Notes under the pieces: model-generated | The model's database searches: none | The model's input: the letters and a program-made list of their open reading frames with translations, nothing else | Told to the model about the DNA's origin: nothing | Source: Planococcus shixiaomingii | Lineage (GTDB): Bacteria; Bacillota; Bacilli; Bacillales_A; Planococcaceae | DNA: 64,000 nt | NCBI RefSeq assembly: GCF_030413615.1 | Contig: NZ_CP129236.1 | Location: 3,146,001 to 3,210,000 of the forward strand | Direction: 5' to 3' | Made by a program: the position numbers and the translations under genes | Shown: positions 1 to 49,599 of the stretch, piece after piece | Position numbering within the stretch: the first letter of the stretch is position 1 | Layout: each line of letters begins with the position of its first letter

Positions 1-245
1 AAGCTAAAAGCGTCGGTAGAGAATTAGTTAAAGTTCTTCCAGCTGAAAAAGTGCCTTTATCGCTTTTCGCTACAAGAGAAAAGCTTCCATCATTATTTTT
101 AATTTTGGTTCACCGCTTTAATAGGAGTGCATTTAGAAATACGAAGAGTATCGATAGAAAATTGTAATGTACAGGTAAGAACTTGAAAAGTGTCGGTAGA
201 GATTGAAAGAATACAGGTAAGAGAGAAAAAAGTATCGATAGAAAA
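1..245 (-). repeat. Composite 21-bp array repeat, locus A1
   Basis: This gene-free 288-bp left edge holds one complete array of six half-units on the minus strand. The conserved TA step of each unit falls at 134, 155, 176, 197, 218 and 239, exactly 21 bp apart. Units alternate between a CTAYCGAC type and a TTACCTG(C/T)AC type. A hairpin with arms GCTTTTC/GAAAAGC lies at 62-84, and part of another array begins at 17. The stretch 100-160 closely matches 3450-3520 of locus A2, so these are dispersed copies of one element. No protein-coding reading is supported. Confidence 0.85.
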
Positions 246-268
246 GTTGGTCAACACTTCAACTATAC

Positions 269-1938: not shown

Positions 1939-3060
1939 TTATTCGCTCCCGTCCAATGATGCTGATTTTATCGTGAGTTTATTCAGCTGCTGTTCGATTA
2001 CTGTGATGCCGAGGCCCGGCTGGTCTGTCAAATGAACGAACGGCGGTTCGAAGTTAAGATCGCCGATTTCCTCTTTGAATAACAACGGCCCGGTCAGTTC
2101 CGCCGATTGGATGTTGCGCCGCGCCATGACGGCGTGGTAGCCGGCGGCGGATCCGACGGACGATTCCACCATGGAACCGATCTGCGCAATAATGCCTGCG
2201 CTCTCCGCTGCTTTCGCCATCTGCACCGCCGGGTAAATACCGCCCGACTTCATCAGTTTGATGTTAATAAAATCTGCGGCTTGCAGTCGGATGATTTCCA
2301 GGACATCCTCCATATTGTGGACACTTTCGTCCGCCATAATCGGCGTCGAGGTTTTTTGCCGGATTTCTGCCAGTCCCCTGATGTCGCCCATTAGGATCGG
2401 CTGCTCAACCCATGTCAAGTTGGCATCTTGTAACTGATTAATGACTCCAATGGCGTGGCCAACCGTTTTCCAGCCTTGATTGACATCGACCCGGATCGGC
2501 ATTGCTTCCCCTACTGCTTCACGCACTGCATTGATTCGAGCGATGTCTTGCCGCGAATCGTCGACGCCAACTTTCAATTTCAGGCTGCTGAAGCCTTGAT
2601 TCTTGGCAATTAACGCTTTTTCTGCCATGACAGCCGGTTCTTCGATGCTCAGCACTTTGGCGTATTGGATGTTTTCATGCGCACGTCCGCCGATCAAGTT
2701 GTAGACCGGCTGATTCGCCGCTTTCCCCATCAAGTCGTAGCACGCAATATCGATTGCCGCTTTCGCCGCGGGATTGCGGGCGATGGTCGAATTCATTAGG
2801 TGGTGGATGTGTTCAATATCGAACGGATTTTGGTTAAGTATTTGCGGGAGAAGGACGTTCTTCAAGATTTCGAATGTCCCTGAAACATGCTCACCTGTTA
2901 CATGTTCATCCGGCACCGCTTCTCCGTAGCCGATCAGTCCAGTATCGGTTTCAAGCTTCAAGATGACAGCCGGCATGTTGGGATATGTGGCATATGAAAT
3001 GATGAACGGTTCTTTTAGAGGAAACTCCAACAAGTAAAGATGTGCTTTCGTAATTCTCAT
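1939..3060 (-). CDS. Enolase-superfamily dipeptide epimerase / muconate-lactonizing-like enzyme
   Basis: A 373-residue enzyme of the enolase superfamily, muconate-lactonizing subgroup, to which L-Ala-D/L-Glu epimerases and N-acylamino acid racemases belong. Catalytic features are present: the KxK pair in SLKLKVG, metal ligands in RVDVNQGW, WVEQP and MADES, and the second lysine in NIKLMKSGG. It differs from the YkfB paralogue at 14620-15726 in the C-terminal specificity region (GSMVESSVGSAAGYHA against GSMIETKLGVSAAAHFA), so its substrate probably differs. ATG at 3060 is preferred because it is 13 nt from GGGA; an in-frame GTG at 3072 almost touches the RBS. The M20 amidohydrolase follows after 4 bp. 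Confidence 0.85.
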   Translation of the reverse strand: MRITKAHLYLLEFPLKEPFIISYATYPNMPAVILKLETDTGLIGYGEAVPDEHVTGEHVSGTFEILKNVLLPQILNQNPFDIEHIHHLMNSTIARNPAAKAAIDIACYDLMGKAANQPVYNLIGGRAHENIQYAKVLSIEEPAVMAEKALIAKNQGFSSLKLKVGVDDSRQDIARINAVREAVGEAMPIRVDVNQGWKTVGHAIGVINQLQDANLTWVEQPILMGDIRGLAEIRQKTSTPIMADESVHNMEDVLEIIRLQAADFINIKLMKSGGIYPAVQMAKAAESAGIIAQIGSMVESSVGSAAGYHAVMARRNIQSAELTGPLLFKEEIGDLNFEPPFVHLTDQPGLGITVIEQQLNKLTIKSASLDGSE

Positions 3061-3147
3061 GTAGCTCGTCACTTCCCTTTCGATATGTATAAAGCTAATT
3101 GTACCTTGGAAAGCGGCGAGGGTGAAGGAATGTCTGGTTAGAGTTAC

Positions 3148-3720
3148 ATATTTCTATCGACACTTTTGGCGCTCTTACCCGCACTTTTAGGCTTTCTACC
3201 GACGTTCTTCAGGTTTATACAAGCACTGTTTTCTTTTCTACCGACACTTTTCATAGTTCTACCTGCATTTCTATTGAAGTGGCTCTCCAAGATCTAAAGC
3301 TTGAATGGATGCTTTTTTCCAAAGCGAAAAGCGGTAAAAAACACTTTTTAATTTTAGTAATGTTTTTCCATTTTCCTTCCTACACTTTTCCTGCTCTTAA
3401 CCGCAGTTTTTCGTTTTCTACCGACGTTTTTTGATTTCTTACCTGCACTATTTCATTTTCTATCGACACTCTTCGTATTTCTACATGCACTCCTATAAAA
3501 ACGGTGAACCAAAATCAAAAGCAAAGATGGATGCTTTTCGCTTGCAGCGAAAAGCGATAAGGGCAGTTATTCAGATTGAGAAGAGTTGATTGTTTTCTAC
3601 CGACCCCATTTCCGTTCTTACCCACACGCTTCGATTTTCAATCGACGTTTTTTGCACTTTTACCTGCACTACTGGAGTTTCTACCGACATTTCCCACTTT
3701 TCTACCTGCACTCTCTGCAA
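3148..3720 (+). repeat. Three composite 21-bp arrays, locus A2
   Basis: Most of the 714-bp gap 3061-3774 is filled by three arrays of six half-units. TA steps lie at 3155, 3176, 3197, 3218, 3239, 3260; then 3381, 3398, 3419, 3440, 3461, 3482 (first interval shortened by 4 bp); then 3598, 3619, 3640, 3661, 3682, 3703. Odd units read CTAYCGAC and even units TTACCTGCAC, each followed by a T-rich stretch. Between arrays are hairpins GCTTTT/GAAAAGC at 3311-3332 and GCTTTTCGC/GCGAAAAGC at 3533-3555, the latter followed by GATAAG. Array starts are 226 and 217 bp apart. The positions 3061-3147 hold nothing recognisable beyond the upstream region of the epimerase gene. Confidence 0.9.
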
Positions 3721-3721
3721 A

Positions 3722-3761
3722 AAAAAGAATAGCTTTTCGCCCTTGCGAAAAACCATTCTTA
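3722..3761 (-). terminator. Terminator of the NERD gene, built on the array hairpin
   Basis: AAGAAT and ATTCTT arms enclose the TTTTCGC/GCGAAAA stem typical of the array-associated hairpins, and on the minus strand the hairpin is followed by eight T. It ends the NERD gene and shows that one copy of the repeat hairpin serves as a transcription terminator. Confidence 0.8.
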
Positions 3762-3774
3762 GCTAAATTTAAAC

Positions 3775-4716
3775 TTAAATGCGCTTAGCGTAACGGCGGT
3801 GGCGTCTGCCTCCGATTTCATCCAACTCCATTCGTTTAAGCAGACGTTTAGCAGCTTCAAGGCTGCTGAGTCCCAGGAAATCTTTGCATTGATTCGTCGT
3901 GATCGTAGGTTGGCAGAGCATGAACCACTCTTCGACCGCCTCAAAATGTGCATCATTACTGAGCAAGAAGCAACTTTTGCATTCCCATTTCCGCTGAAAG
4001 CGATCCATTTTCTTTAAGCGGCATCGAGGACAAAAAACGCCGTTTTCGATATTTTGCAGTTGGATATCAAATTTTGGAGCTAATGGAAATGGGTTGTATT
4101 TTTGTTGAAGGGAAAGAAACTGATCGCCCAAAGATTTCATTTGTTCTAAAGAAATTTTGGGTTTTGGCATATCAAGGTTATAAAGACGCACAAGAACTTC
4201 GTCAGCACTCCATACTTTTGTGCCTGGAGGAACGTTTTCAACAATCTGAGAAGGATAAGCGATGACAATGGCGCTTTGTACGCGCAGTGGAAAGTTAAGG
4301 AGTTTTAGTATTTTTTCAACTTTCAATTGAGCCGTTTCCGCTTGAATGACCGGGCTCTTATGGCCTCTTATTTCTCCATTCGGCGTTACTTGATGCAAGG
4401 CACTCGGATTTTCCTGAAAACGGAGTATGCCACTCATGTTCTTTACTTCCAGCAGAAAAACACAGCTTTGGGTAATCATCATCGTATCGATTTGAAGATG
4501 GTCCGGCAATTCCACATCTTGCAGTAATAAATGCGGATATGGCGGCTCAAAAAAATCGAGCAGCCGGTCCAACCGTTCCTCACCGCCTATGCCAGCTCTT
4601 GCAGAATTCAATTTTTCTTGGATCACCCCTCTTTTCTCATAATGTGCTGGCAGTCTTTTCAGCAACGCTTCATACCCAGCAATTTTTGCCGGTTTGTTTC
4701 GATATTTTATAATCAA
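3775..4716 (-). CDS. NERD-domain protein with C-terminal zinc ribbon
   Basis: A 313-residue protein of the NERD (nuclease-related domain) group. The N-terminal part carries the restriction-endonuclease-like core: GIGGEERLDRLLD near residue 43, HLQIDTMMI near 75, then FLLEVKN near 88, corresponding to the E, D and ExK positions of the fold. A CPRC...CKSC zinc ribbon lies near residue 228-248, followed by a winged-helix-like tail (TNQCKDFLGLSSLEAAKRLL) with a basic end. Start TTG at 4716 is chosen because GGGGG lies 7-9 nt upstream; the reading frame is open further upstream but has no RBS. DNA processing is likely but unproven. The gene is flanked on both sides by 21-bp arrays in the same orientation. 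Confidence 0.8.
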   Translation of the reverse strand: MIIKYRNKPAKIAGYEALLKRLPAHYEKRGVIQEKLNSARAGIGGEERLDRLLDFFEPPYPHLLLQDVELPDHLQIDTMMITQSCVFLLEVKNMSGILRFQENPSALHQVTPNGEIRGHKSPVIQAETAQLKVEKILKLLNFPLRVQSAIVIAYPSQIVENVPPGTKVWSADEVLVRLYNLDMPKPKISLEQMKSLGDQFLSLQQKYNPFPLAPKFDIQLQNIENGVFCPRCRLKKMDRFQRKWECKSCFLLSNDAHFEAVEEWFMLCQPTITTNQCKDFLGLSSLEAAKRLLKRMELDEIGGRRHRRYAKRI

Positions 4717-4967
4717 ATTCACACCCCCTTTTCCCCATTCTAGCAAAGCTATTGTGAAAATTCCATAAATATCCAAATCTCGTTTTTAAACGTGCTATAG
4801 GGGTTAAAAATGAGATTTGAAGAGAAGTTTCTTGCCTTTTCCTACTGTAATTTTCGAAGTTTCGTATAGTTTTTTTGGAAAAGCTCTTTCTAGACTGATA
4901 AATACAGAACAACTTTGGAACGGTTGCTTTAGCAAACAGTTATTGATACAGGCGAGATGTCGCCCAG

Positions 4968-5310
4968 GTTTCTATCCGCACTTTTCTCCATCTTACCCTC
5001 ATTCTTCAAATTTCTATCGACGTTCTTTGGATTCTTACCCGCACTTTTCCATTTACTACCGACATTTTCCGAATTTCTATCTGCACTTCTTTCCAAGCGA
5101 CTCTCCACAATTAAAGTTCAAGCCCTAACATAGATGCTTTTCGCTGAAGCGAAAAGCGATAAGGACGAGTTCTAAGAATTAATTGCTTCTATCGACGTTT
5201 TTTTCACTCCTACACGCATTTTCAGTCTTTCTATCGACGCTTTTTGGATTCTTACCTGCACTATTCCTATCTCTACCGACACTTTTCCCAGTTCTACCTG
5301 CACTCCCCCA
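4968..5310 (+). repeat. Two composite 21-bp arrays, locus A3
   Basis: Two perfect six-unit arrays in the gap between the NERD gene and rocB. TA steps are at 4973, 4994, 5015, 5036, 5057, 5078 and at 5190, 5211, 5232, 5253, 5274, 5295, all 21 bp apart. The arrays start 217 bp from each other. A GCTTTTCGC/GCGAAAAGC hairpin at 5136-5157 followed by GATAAG lies between them. The stretch 4717-4967 of the same gap shows only the NERD upstream region and no gene. Confidence 0.9.
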
Positions 5311-5355
5311 GAAAACTTCTCTCGTCCCTCTTTCTGTAAAGTTTTACTCCAACAA

Positions 5356-5382
5356 AAAAAGCCGCATTAGCTGCGGCTTTTT
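5356..5382 (-). terminator. Terminator of the rocB-like gene
   Basis: AAAAAGCCGCA and TGCGGCTTTTT arms around a five-base loop, with a T run on the minus strand. The 5' arm is coding: the last codons of the M20 peptidase form it and its TAA stop is in the loop. Confidence 0.85.
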
Positions 5383-6980
5383 ACGGATATGGCTAAAATC
5401 ATTTCTTCTAGCAATACCGGCATTTCTTCGAAAGTATTTTTAATGTGCAGGCGCTCGGTGCGTTTGTGTGCGTCTTTGCCGAATGGGCCGACGTTCAGCA
5501 CTGGCGCTTTCAGCAATTTCATCGCTTCGAACGGGATGCTGTAGGAATCGCCGTAAATCGGCGTGTTGTTTTCATAGACATGGAAGCTGTCATTTTTATC
5601 ATCGTAATTAACGTAGCTCAAGTCCGAGATGCCGTTGAAATAGTGGACTTGCTTGATTTTTCGGCCGAATTTATTCATGGAGTTCTCAGTTACTAGGCTG
5701 ACGCATTTTTTGACCAGTTCATCTTCTGATGAGTTGATAGCCGGGTAATATGGCGGCGCGTACATGATGATGATCGCCGGCGTCAACTCCTGGCAGTTGA
5801 TGAGCAGGATGTCGGTGATGTGCAGCGATTTTTCGCGCACGTCCCATTCCGGATGCATCATTGTTTCATACAGCGATTCGTTGACGTATTCGACACCGAA
5901 CTTTTCGATGGCGTAGCGCATCAGCTCTTCATAGCGCAGCACGCGGATGTCGCCGACCGGTTCAACATTTTCGCGTTCGCACATTGCCCGGTAATCGCGC
6001 GTACAATGTTCGGCCGCTTCGATCGCCACTTGCTCGAAAATCTCGAACACTTCTGCAGCATTGCGTTCCATCAAGAACACATTGTACATCGCGGACGTCC
6101 GGTACGGCGTTTGCGCAGAGTATTCCAGTTTGATGTCACGCTGCGTCAAAGTTACCGGCAACGGCGTTTTTTCGCCGTAGACGTTTTCTGTAAAGCTCGT
6201 GTTCCATTCCATGCGGTGCGTCAAATAGGTCGAAATGTAGCTTGATGTAATGCCCGACAAAGGTTCGCCGACATGAGTTTCCTTGCCGTAGAAAAACGCG
6301 GTCGGCATGATTTTCCCAATCGTGCCGGTATATAGATAATGCGATTTATCCCCCGGTTGCTGGGCAAATGCCGGTTCACCGTTCAGGAATAAAATAAAAT
6401 CCAAATCGTGCTCGCGCTCTAAATCGAGCAATTTCGAAACGCCATAGCGCATACCAGCAGAGTTGACTTCTTCGTCCGGCACAGTCATTAAGAGCAGATT
6501 GATTGGCCAGTTTTCCGATGACGCTTTTTCAATCAGCGCCATATGCAGCGCAAGCCCCGCTTTCATATCCATTGTTCCGCGGCCGAACAAAAACTCGCCG
6601 GACGCCAGATCATCTTGCGCGTCCTGATCCAATTCATCGCTGACCGCTTTGAACGCTTCCGTCAATTCATGCGGCAAGCAGCTTAAAGGCTCCAAATCCC
6701 CATACTCTTCGGTCTGTACCGTATCGAAATGGCTCATCAACACAATCGTGTCGCTTGCTTCCGGGTGCTTGTACAGTGCGGTTACATACTGACGCCCCCA
6801 GTTGACTTCCCCAAGCGCCACATGCTCTGGATGTTCTTGGAAATATGGCAATAAATCCAGTTTTTCTTTTAAGTTGTAAGCGAAGTCCACTTCGCCTTCT
6901 GATAATGTGATGCTTTTCCAACTGACAAGTTCACATAATAGCTCTTGCAGTTTTTCCGGGGTGCCCCATAACGTTGTCAC
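5367..6980 (-). CDS. rocB: M20-family peptidase, RocB-like
   Basis: A 537-residue zinc peptidase of family M20 resembling RocB, the arginine-utilisation protein of Bacillus, whose exact reaction is not established. Visible motifs are LMSHFDTVQ near residue 84, GRGTMDMKAGLALH near 135 and VPDEEVNSAGMRYG near 165. The length fits RocB (about 560) rather than smaller M20 enzymes. The start is GTG with GAGGAGG 8 nt upstream. No rocA, rocD or rocF lies beside it, so a role in arginine catabolism is family-based only. A stable hairpin (7011-7057) sits in its 5' leader. Confidence 0.8.
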   Translation of the reverse strand: MTTLWGTPEKLQELLCELVSWKSITLSEGEVDFAYNLKEKLDLLPYFQEHPEHVALGEVNWGRQYVTALYKHPEASDTIVLMSHFDTVQTEEYGDLEPLSCLPHELTEAFKAVSDELDQDAQDDLASGEFLFGRGTMDMKAGLALHMALIEKASSENWPINLLLMTVPDEEVNSAGMRYGVSKLLDLEREHDLDFILFLNGEPAFAQQPGDKSHYLYTGTIGKIMPTAFFYGKETHVGEPLSGITSSYISTYLTHRMEWNTSFTENVYGEKTPLPVTLTQRDIKLEYSAQTPYRTSAMYNVFLMERNAAEVFEIFEQVAIEAAEHCTRDYRAMCERENVEPVGDIRVLRYEELMRYAIEKFGVEYVNESLYETMMHPEWDVREKSLHITDILLINCQELTPAIIIMYAPPYYPAINSSEDELVKKCVSLVTENSMNKFGRKIKQVHYFNGISDLSYVNYDDKNDSFHVYENNTPIYGDSYSIPFEAMKLLKAPVLNVGPFGKDAHKRTERLHIKNTFEEMPVLLEEMILAISVKSRS

Positions 6981-9477: not shown

Positions 9478-9880
9478 GTGCAGGTATGAAGAATGCGTGT
9501 AGAACTGTCAAGAGTGTCGATAGAAGCGTCAATAGTGTAGGTAAGAAGCCGAAGAGTATCTGTAGAAATCGATAAAAAGCAGGTAGGAGTGAAAAAACTG
9601 TCGGTAAAAAAACGGGAACCTTAATGAATGCTCTTATCGCTTTTCTCATCCAGCGAAAAGCAGCCATTGCTGGTTTTGAATTTGGATTAGTGAAAGTGGC
9701 TTCGGGAGAAACGCAGGTAGAACTCGGAAAAGTATCGATAGAAACTTGAATAGTGCTGGTAAGAATCCTACCAGTGTCGATAGAAATCGAAAAAACACAG
9801 GTAGGAGTGAAAAAACTGTCGGTATAAAAACATAGACCACAAAGAATGCTCTTATCGCTTTTCGCCTCCAGCGAAAAGCA
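9478..9880 (-). repeat. Two composite 21-bp arrays, locus A4
   Basis: Two six-unit arrays, in the opposite orientation to A2 and A3, fill the gap 9390-9965. TA steps are at 9500, 9521, 9542, 9563, 9584, 9605 and at 9718, 9739, 9760, 9781, 9802, 9823. Hairpins lie at 9639-9661 and 9857-9879 (GCTTTTCGC/GCGAAAAGC). The composite period is 218 bp. One extra degenerate unit may lie at 9485. The remainder of the gap holds the EamA upstream region (9390-9470) and a terminator (9926-9955). Confidence 0.9.
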
Positions 9881-9925
9881 TCCATTTCATCTTTTAAACT
9901 TCCTATAACTCCCACTCCATATAAA

Positions 9926-11950: not shown

Positions 11951-12189
11951 ACTATGTAGTCCTTTCAGTGCTATCGGATGTCCTGCTTTCCTTTACTTTA
12001 CCAAAAAACAATAGCCAATGAAACGCACGGATGGGCACAATTGCCAATATTTTCGCTTTTGAGCCAAAAGGCATAGTGGTTAGCAATAAACAAGGGCGAG
12101 TAGATATTTCTGAGTTATTGCTTTTTTTCGCCCAAAACGTTCATTTACGATTGTGATTTAAATTATAAGCAAACGTTTTTTTAAGGAGT

Positions 12190-12306
12190 TTATGTAGAAC
12201 TGCTTAAAACGCATGTAGAAAGCCCGGTTCGTCATGTAAGAACTTTTAAAGTTCATGTAGAAACCAGAATTGTTCATGTAAGAGCAGAAAAACTTCATGA
12301 AGAAAA
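12190..12306 (+). repeat. Six-unit 21-bp array with CATG core (variant B)
   Basis: The 441-bp gap 11951-12391 contains a single array of six units with anchor positions 12195, 12216, 12237, 12258, 12279 and 12300, all 21 bp apart. Units read CATGTAGAA or CATGTAAGA, with partial alternation. The TAGAA/TAAGAA side is the same as in the A arrays, while the A core (TCGA or TGCAGG) is replaced by CATG. The stretch 11951-12189 shows no gene; a run of AT-rich sequence lies before the array. Confidence 0.85.
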
Positions 12307-12362
12307 TATTTCCAGCTCCCGCCCTCGTCTATTCTTACTCTATTTCTCTCCTAAAAGAAAAA

Positions 12363-49321: not shown

Positions 49322-49461
49322 AAAATGCCCTCTTTTCTTTTTCTGTTTAGCTGCAGCGCGTTAGCCACGCCTCTACTTTTCTTAATTCTAACATTTTTAT
49401 GCTTAAAAACCTAGAATGCCGTTGCTAGCAGCAGATTCGCTCATTCCATGGGCACATTTGG

Positions 49462-49583
49462 CGGTTCGATGAGTGTTTAATTTCGGTTTATGATCGCTCC
49501 ATCCAGATTTATGATCAGTTAATCACGATTTATGATCACTCGATCTAGGTTTATAATCACTTTCCCCAATTGCACGGACACTC
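49462..49583 (+). repeat. 21-bp array with GATC core (variant C)
   Basis: The 325-bp gap between rpiB and ywlE holds four clear units GRTTTATGATCRCT spaced 21 bp (TA at 49489, 49510, 49531, 49552). One degenerate unit can be aligned on each side, at 49468 and 49573, which would again give six. On the opposite strand the units read AGTGATCATAAA. The rest of the gap holds the rpiB upstream region (49322-49460) and a terminator. Confidence 0.75.
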
Positions 49584-49599
49584 ATCCAAATGCAAAAGA

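Follow-up and report, generated by a model that had tools for sequence, protein, structure and literature searches.

Which protein, if any, reads the short direct repeats that are strung along this part of a Planococcus shixiaomingii genome, and what keeps their spacing so even? The window, i.e. the whole stretch of DNA analysed, comprises 64,000 nucleotides of a 4.02-Mb genome (G000:C1:3146001-3210000, G000 being the source genome). The pairing of its repeat arrays with genes for nuclease-related (NERD) proteins is well supported. Probably, the arrays are the cognate DNA platforms of the neighbouring NERD/winged-helix protein, both forming an enzyme-plus-repeat system. A preliminary description of the repeats included neither the NERD gene at 3775-4776 nor the other dialects, and its interpretation is supported in part.

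Eight complete arrays of the motif variant named dialect A are located in the window. Each consists of six units at 21-bp steps, as described before (8/8, trained position matrix and chaining); one chain gains a weak seventh 'unit' at +25, which is taken as spurious. Five arrays in (+) orientation flank the gene NERD-a, three on its downstream side (3149..3274, 3371..3496 and, closest to the 3' end, 3592..3717) and two upstream (4967..5092 and a tandem copy at 5184..5309). The others are on the (-) strand, at 121..246 and, as dispersed arrays, at 9487..9612 and 9705..9830. A partial array crosses the window start (1..24, (-); whole array G000:C1:3145899-3146024). The alternation of two unit types is real: slots 1, 3 and 5 read CTAYCGAC and slots 2, 4 and 6 YTACCTGCA, although slot 4 shows the largest deviation. 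A 42-bp dimer as the true unit holds for dialect A, as a property of that dialect and not in general. The 4-bp slip placed at 3381-3398 is unneeded, since five 21-bp steps suffice to align the array. The units of dialect A form direct repeats and are not palindromic. A dialect B array (CTTCATGAAG / CTACATGAACTTT; 12182..12307, (-)) comprises six slots with a degenerate slot 4, and its slot 1 contains the 10-bp palindrome CTTCATGAAG. A solo 21-bp array of TTTATGATCACT (49454..49595, (+)) has its best match in the motif beside another NERD gene, G000:C1:1495997-1496923.

Hairpin modules separate tandem arrays in the window (3529-3562, 5130-5165, 9850-9890; GCTTTTCGC..GCGAAAAGC) and, elsewhere, at loci L095 and L097, where they are of the type GCTGTTCGC..GCGAACAGC. 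Judged by eye, they seem to retain pairing via two-sided changes. An RNA family was rejected: Rfam yielded three matches in window positions 2800-5600, all under the gathering scores and none within an array.

The geometry was followed through 20 stretches of the source genome, chosen for a model or BLAST match and one of them extended by the window's first 14 kb. They contain 47 chains with three (2), four (2), five (6), six (29), seven (5) or eight (3) slots; some of the seven- and eight-slot chains look like chain overruns. The unit-to-unit step is 21 bp in 206 of 224 cases. The other steps measure 18 (1), 19 (1), 20 (2), 22 (4), 23 (2) and 25 bp (2), or 42 bp where a unit is skipped (6). 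Gaps between tandem arrays range from 55 to 144 bp (15 pairs). Units thus diverge and the DNA between arrays varies in length, whereas the period is maintained. Outside the source genome, arrays have 3 to 40 units, yet their period is still 20 or 21 bp. Exactly six units is thus typical of the source genome and no general rule, and the 21-bp period is nearly constant, with 20 bp as a second value. Unit counts that vary speak against the preliminary description. Spacing that hardly varies supports its proposal of selection on geometry, with sites on one helix face, and its view that no such element had been described agrees with the searches made, in which no described family was found.

The period was recovered without a motif. 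Autocorrelation over lags 15-30 (threshold 36 of 63) returned six segments from the 64-kb window, all at lag 21; they include five of the eight dialect A arrays, three being too diverged, and the array at 49454-49595. Control DNA of 400 kb (20 stretches from three genomes) yielded 23 segments at threshold 38, nine at lag 21, one at lag 20 and 13 at other lags. A threshold of 37 was applied to the orthologous NERD-a locus, the 20/21 tree labels and the NERD-b sites, and of 38 also to the paralog loci, the 65-locus survey, the tail comparison and the ordinary-gene control. Arrays cluster at G000:C1 590-720 kb and 3118-3158 kb, at about mirror-image distances from the contig ends; the picture is similar in G014 and G030. 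L122 (G012) and L066 (G030) contain satellite-like arrays with a higher-order period of four units (21+21+21+19 or 18) and as many as 40 units in total.

As 21 bp equal seven codons, the arrays might encode a repeat peptide, FLPTLFx / FLHELFx. Forward frame +2 contains 7 stops versus 22.6 in column shuffles, under all 300 of them. However, a reverse frame is likewise depleted (42 vs 66.6), so column linkage can produce such depletion. The linker codon mostly loses TA generally (TAR 2 vs 9.4, TAY 1 vs 3, TGA 4 vs 5), the flanks contain stops and no common start, other dialects have TGA or TAA in that frame (L069, L062), and a period of 20 breaks the frame. Coding is practically excluded.

NERD-a (3775..4776, (-); likely start ATG 4716, 313 aa) encodes the nuclease-related domain PF08378, a C4 zinc ribbon and a winged helix. 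The domain match scores 47.7 bits (curated Pfam cut-off 22.1), PF08378 is matched by 54/54 alignment members, and NERD is the sole family above cut-off for the partner gene. The winged helix makes the protein a candidate for the DNA-binding partner that the preliminary description had anticipated, encoded between the arrays themselves. Among 93 NERD proteins, the putative catalytic residues of PD-(D/E)xK type are nearly invariant: E46 is found in 92, D77 in 93 and K92 in 93, while position 90 is E in 65, D in 21 and S in 7. A Foldseek search returned no PDB match with E<=0.001, and the nuclease part reached only a middling Z; absence from the match lists excludes no family. In NERD-a orthologs, the conservation of the whole winged helix (0.52) is not lower than that of the nuclease parts (0.50-0.59). 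The nine genes beside window arrays comprise VanZ, two M20, MR_MLE, NERD, aminotransferase, EamA and two without a family; the order at the locus is MR_MLE - NERD - M20 - aminotransferase - EamA. NERD alone is located between arrays, both here and in the NERD-b cassette of G010. NERD proteins lacking the zinc ribbon/winged-helix tail have no arrays (30 loci, those returned by the search, with the zinc ribbon assigned by a simple pattern). At L207 (G000:C1:3102450-3103376), the NERD frame stops after the zinc ribbon, at a TAA in the homologous stretch, yet a 21-bp array of TGAGTTACAACTT adjoins; this gene is probably a decaying copy.

The association extends to other NERD loci. In a survey of named genomes, an array of lag 20 or 21 lies within 600 bp of 53 of 65 NERD loci, versus 24 of 1000 random positions (2.4%) and 8 of 177 genes of at least 250 aa (4.5%), both controls being taken from the 400 kb of control DNA; shared descent inflates these linkage counts as well as the clustering of periods. 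The loci belong to Planococcus/Planomicrobium (62), Lysinibacillus (2) and Pontibacillus (1) and overlap partly with the paralog set. Only one of 73 above-threshold sides has another lag. In four genomes, 20 paralog loci were inspected, and 17 show an adjoining lag-21 or lag-20 array; the exceptions are L225, with only a coding repeat, and L214 and L220, with no array. The orthologous NERD-a region was compared across 20 species, and lag 21 was detected motif-free in the gaps beside NERD in all 19 species with the gene at this locus, the source genome included.

At this orthologous locus the motif differs between clades while the arrays stay. NERD-a orthologs are 49-72% identical to the source protein, the neighbouring genes 72-93%. 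Each NERD lineage has a private array motif, e.g. TTCTATGATCACT, TGAGTTACAACTT, GAGCGTGCGTATTTTTC (period 20), TTAATGGAGCGTATTTT, TTTATCCGCGGCTACG or ATACGCCCAACTTC. On the tree of 93 NERD proteins, 81 of them labelled, the 20/21 label changes 5 times versus about 22 after shuffling, with 0/500 shuffles as low, a result inflated by near-copies. The six species inspected that lack NERD-b have no array at its site. It might be argued that the arrays form an independent repeat of 3' ends and that NERD genes just land in repeat-rich gaps, because numerous arrays are distant from all NERD genes, and homologous recombination could both disperse repeats and make neighbours similar. The linkage, the private motifs, the dependence on the C-terminal tail and the six empty NERD-b sites make this very improbable.

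The orientation of arrays relative to the NERD gene varies. Arrays of the same motif are inverted on the two sides of NERD at L209 (1829-3068) and direct at NERD-a and NERD-b. Many NERD loci have a downstream array only, which renders an operator at the NERD promoter unlikely. Two species count against the binding-platform reading: in G065 no NERD gene is found at the NERD-a locus and one array is kept, and in G016 NERD-a is absent from the locus, present elsewhere, and a short array is kept (by eye).

A sequence-only model built from 17 source-genome arrays gave 47 matches in G000 (E<=0.001) and relatives in 20 of 60 genomes, all within the genus. With 22 arrays of several dialects, the model matched 31 of 46 genomes of the genus, 75 of 150 (11 of 17 genera) in a sample of the order and 36 of 299 in a sample of the class, 19 of them outside the family. 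Four of the outside-family loci were inspected: L147 and L149 are arrays, L148 and L152 repetitive coding DNA. One geometry occurs with many dialects (TTCTAYCGACACT, TTCTATGAGCACT, TTCTATCAGCGGTTTT, TTCTATGGGAACT and others). Related NERD genes number 0 to 11 per genome of the genus, and a NERD-a ortholog (E below 1e-90) is present in 27 of the 46. The distributions run in parallel. NERD-a is found in 26 of the 31 genomes with an array-model match, and the other five (G060, G023, G065, G003, G026) carry 6 to 11 other NERD genes. Of the 15 without a match, 14 have no NERD-a ortholog and at most one NERD match of such type, the exception being G016; the array-less genomes may be one clade.

Arrays far from the gene follow it in dialect. 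For 34 of 38 dispersed arrays, the best match is a NERD-a flank from within their own clade, as defined for NERD-a on the protein tree, where 9.6 would be expected for random species; three represent the same place twice (31/35 if merged), and L072 is a tie. The own species' NERD-a flank was the top match for only 10 of the 38, which counts against the preferred explanation. The four off-clade arrays, which likewise count against it, comprise L074, L126 and both of the dialect B arrays tested from the source genome. The five arrays flanking NERD-a are pure dialect A, and some distant arrays are B, or B at the start and A at the end, which fits a dialect switch starting at the gene. Nine control-stretch arrays found motif-free were compared with NERD flanks. 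Eight clearly exceeded shuffles, four matching best in their own genome and four in a sister species (three with the own genome next); the array L240:18233 was a marginal match. Of 12 solo arrays set against ten shuffles, 11 clearly exceeded them, L240:18233 again being marginal. For the array 49454-49595 and for one at a convergent site in G008, the best match is a NERD flank within the respective genome; the corresponding G033 array matches orthologs elsewhere. Arrays of the period-20 NERD-b type (L208) occur away from the gene in at least eight genomes, and among the matches listed 8/8 also have NERD-b.

By a simple ORF call, 31 array clusters lie in 13 convergent, 18 codirectional and 0 divergent gaps; of the 52 remaining gaps longer than 60 bp in these stretches, 4 are convergent, 33 codirectional and 15 divergent. 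Relative to codirectional genes, 13 arrays have the same and 16 the opposite orientation, and this nearly even split makes Rho-type rut sites or terminator RNA unlikely. At the convergent pair G000:C1:1202770, the source genome has a hairpin, a six-unit dialect A array and a second hairpin. Four relatives (G010, G032, G026, G020) have a single hairpin and no array, in two (G008, G033) a pair of hairpins encloses an array whose dialect belongs to another NERD, and G001 has an unrelated GC-rich insert. In G010, the unit array-NERD-array of NERD-b is bounded by the hairpin that follows one gene and by the start region of the gene after it. Terminators and promoters at both sites were judged by eye, and visual inspection of the two polymorphic sites revealed neither a target-site duplication nor a terminal repeat. 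GC-rich, dispersed-looking repeats in similar gaps (L359 ~2730-2930 in G001; L165 ~4270-4940 in G016) are apparently another repeat family.

These placements could mean that protein-bound arrays at the ends of genes act as chromosomal insulators, roadblocks or organisers and that the nuclease fold serves DNA contact or rare cleavage. The avoidance of divergent gaps, the exchange of a single hairpin for hairpin-array-hairpin and the hairpins between tandem arrays are in line with such a role. The site at 1202770 is unconserved in all seven relatives, though, which rules out fixed landmarks at the one dispersed site compared, and the near-invariance of the catalytic residues also disagrees. An architectural role is considered quite unlikely.

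In the preferred reading, NERD-wH, consisting of the NERD PD-(D/E)xK-type domain, the zinc ribbon and the C-terminal winged helix, would bind the arrays, each 20- or 21-bp unit being contacted by a single winged helix. Protomers placed side by side on one helix face would form a cooperative nucleoprotein array. We infer direct binding at one winged helix per two turns as the simplest account; binding on one DNA face predicts wide tolerance in motif and number and narrow tolerance in period, as observed. Each NERD-wH lineage would recognise its own motif, and the motif and the arrays it governs, gene-adjacent and scattered, would change together. Together with its flanking arrays, the gene would come and go at particular gaps as a cassette, the scattered arrays being non-autonomous copies placed at gene ends. 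The variable array orientation, the lack of a visible target-site duplication or terminal repeat, the conservation of the winged helix and the Foldseek outcome weigh against this reading. Nuclease action at the arrays (nicking, repair, gene conversion) would most likely cause their spread, tandem expansion and single dialect; such an activity, a part in array copying and a benefit to the host are presumed. A tentative and rather doubtful extension is that NERD-wH cuts or nicks its cognate arrays and repair copies, expands and homogenises them, in a satellite drive or arms race like the evolution of centromeric satellites.

Array-bound NERD-wH may alternatively be an anti-phage or anti-plasmid device, with arrays that store, silence or self-mark a nuclease acting on invading DNA. 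The 0 to 11 copies per genome, fast divergence, and gain and loss are compatible with defence, and the NERD part is weakly similar to the BREX PglW and MADS6 models, far under their cut-offs. PADLOC placed none of five NERD proteins above noise (best E 0.007, 12.8 bits), and the NERD-a neighbours with an annotation encode metabolic enzymes, a transporter and a VanZ-like protein (two of nine without a family). One viral-contig scan contained no NERD relative, which likewise speaks against defence. We regard it as unlikely. A plasmid or phage origin was rejected on the same scan and on a 591-bp dialect A query, which found no similar DNA in 72,556 plasmid records.

NERD-wH and its arrays look like an undescribed partnership of an enzyme and its DNA landing sites. 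In the literature within reach, which largely excludes subscription journals, no description of NERD genes with repeat arrays was found. Through the partnership, a nuclease-like domain that is widespread but poorly understood would be given a defined DNA substrate, and about a dozen lineage-specific protein/motif pairs make recognition, two-turn cooperativity and the evolution of specificity directly testable. If true, it would account for a group of extragenic repeats in Bacilli, likewise without a description in the literature within reach.

No known family among those tested fits the system. Plasmid iterons are few direct repeats two helix turns apart, with lineage-specific motifs, read by winged-helix domains of Rep. 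The arrays share this spacing and lineage specificity, but are chromosomal, occur in dozens of copies and have a nuclease-type partner; no Rep initiator gene is among the seven family-assigned genes of the nine beside window arrays. TnsA of Tn7 also combines a PD-(D/E)xK domain with a winged helix, and Tn7-type ends, recognised with TnsA/TnsB, have repeated sites near the cassette ends as the NERD cassette does. Unlike Tn7, the NERD-linked arrays are direct or inverted, no terminal inverted repeat or target duplication was seen, and no DDE transposase (TnsB) is encoded between the arrays at NERD-a or in the G010 NERD-b cassette. Type III toxin-antitoxin systems likewise place a nuclease gene beside few tandem repeats and a hairpin. 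There, the repeat functions as an RNA from the same strand as the gene, whereas the NERD arrays vary in orientation, recur in many copies elsewhere and have a period that follows the DNA helix. REPIN-RAYT consists of REP elements and their Y1/HUH tyrosine transposase. Both systems have a nuclease gene flanked by its own repeat type and matched to scattered extragenic repeats, often at gene ends, and a long vertical descent. RAYT is an HUH enzyme and its repeats are palindromic hairpins, in contrast to a PD-(D/E)xK-type partner with zinc ribbon and winged helix and to direct, helically phased repeats; NERD-a matches only NERD above cut-off, and not a Y1/HUH transposase. The arrays persist vertically, are dispersed, have private motifs and change in concert; in these respects they would appear to resemble REPIN-RAYT most closely, assembled from other parts, and would, if the reading is true, provide a second example, built independently, of repeats that live with a dedicated nuclease.
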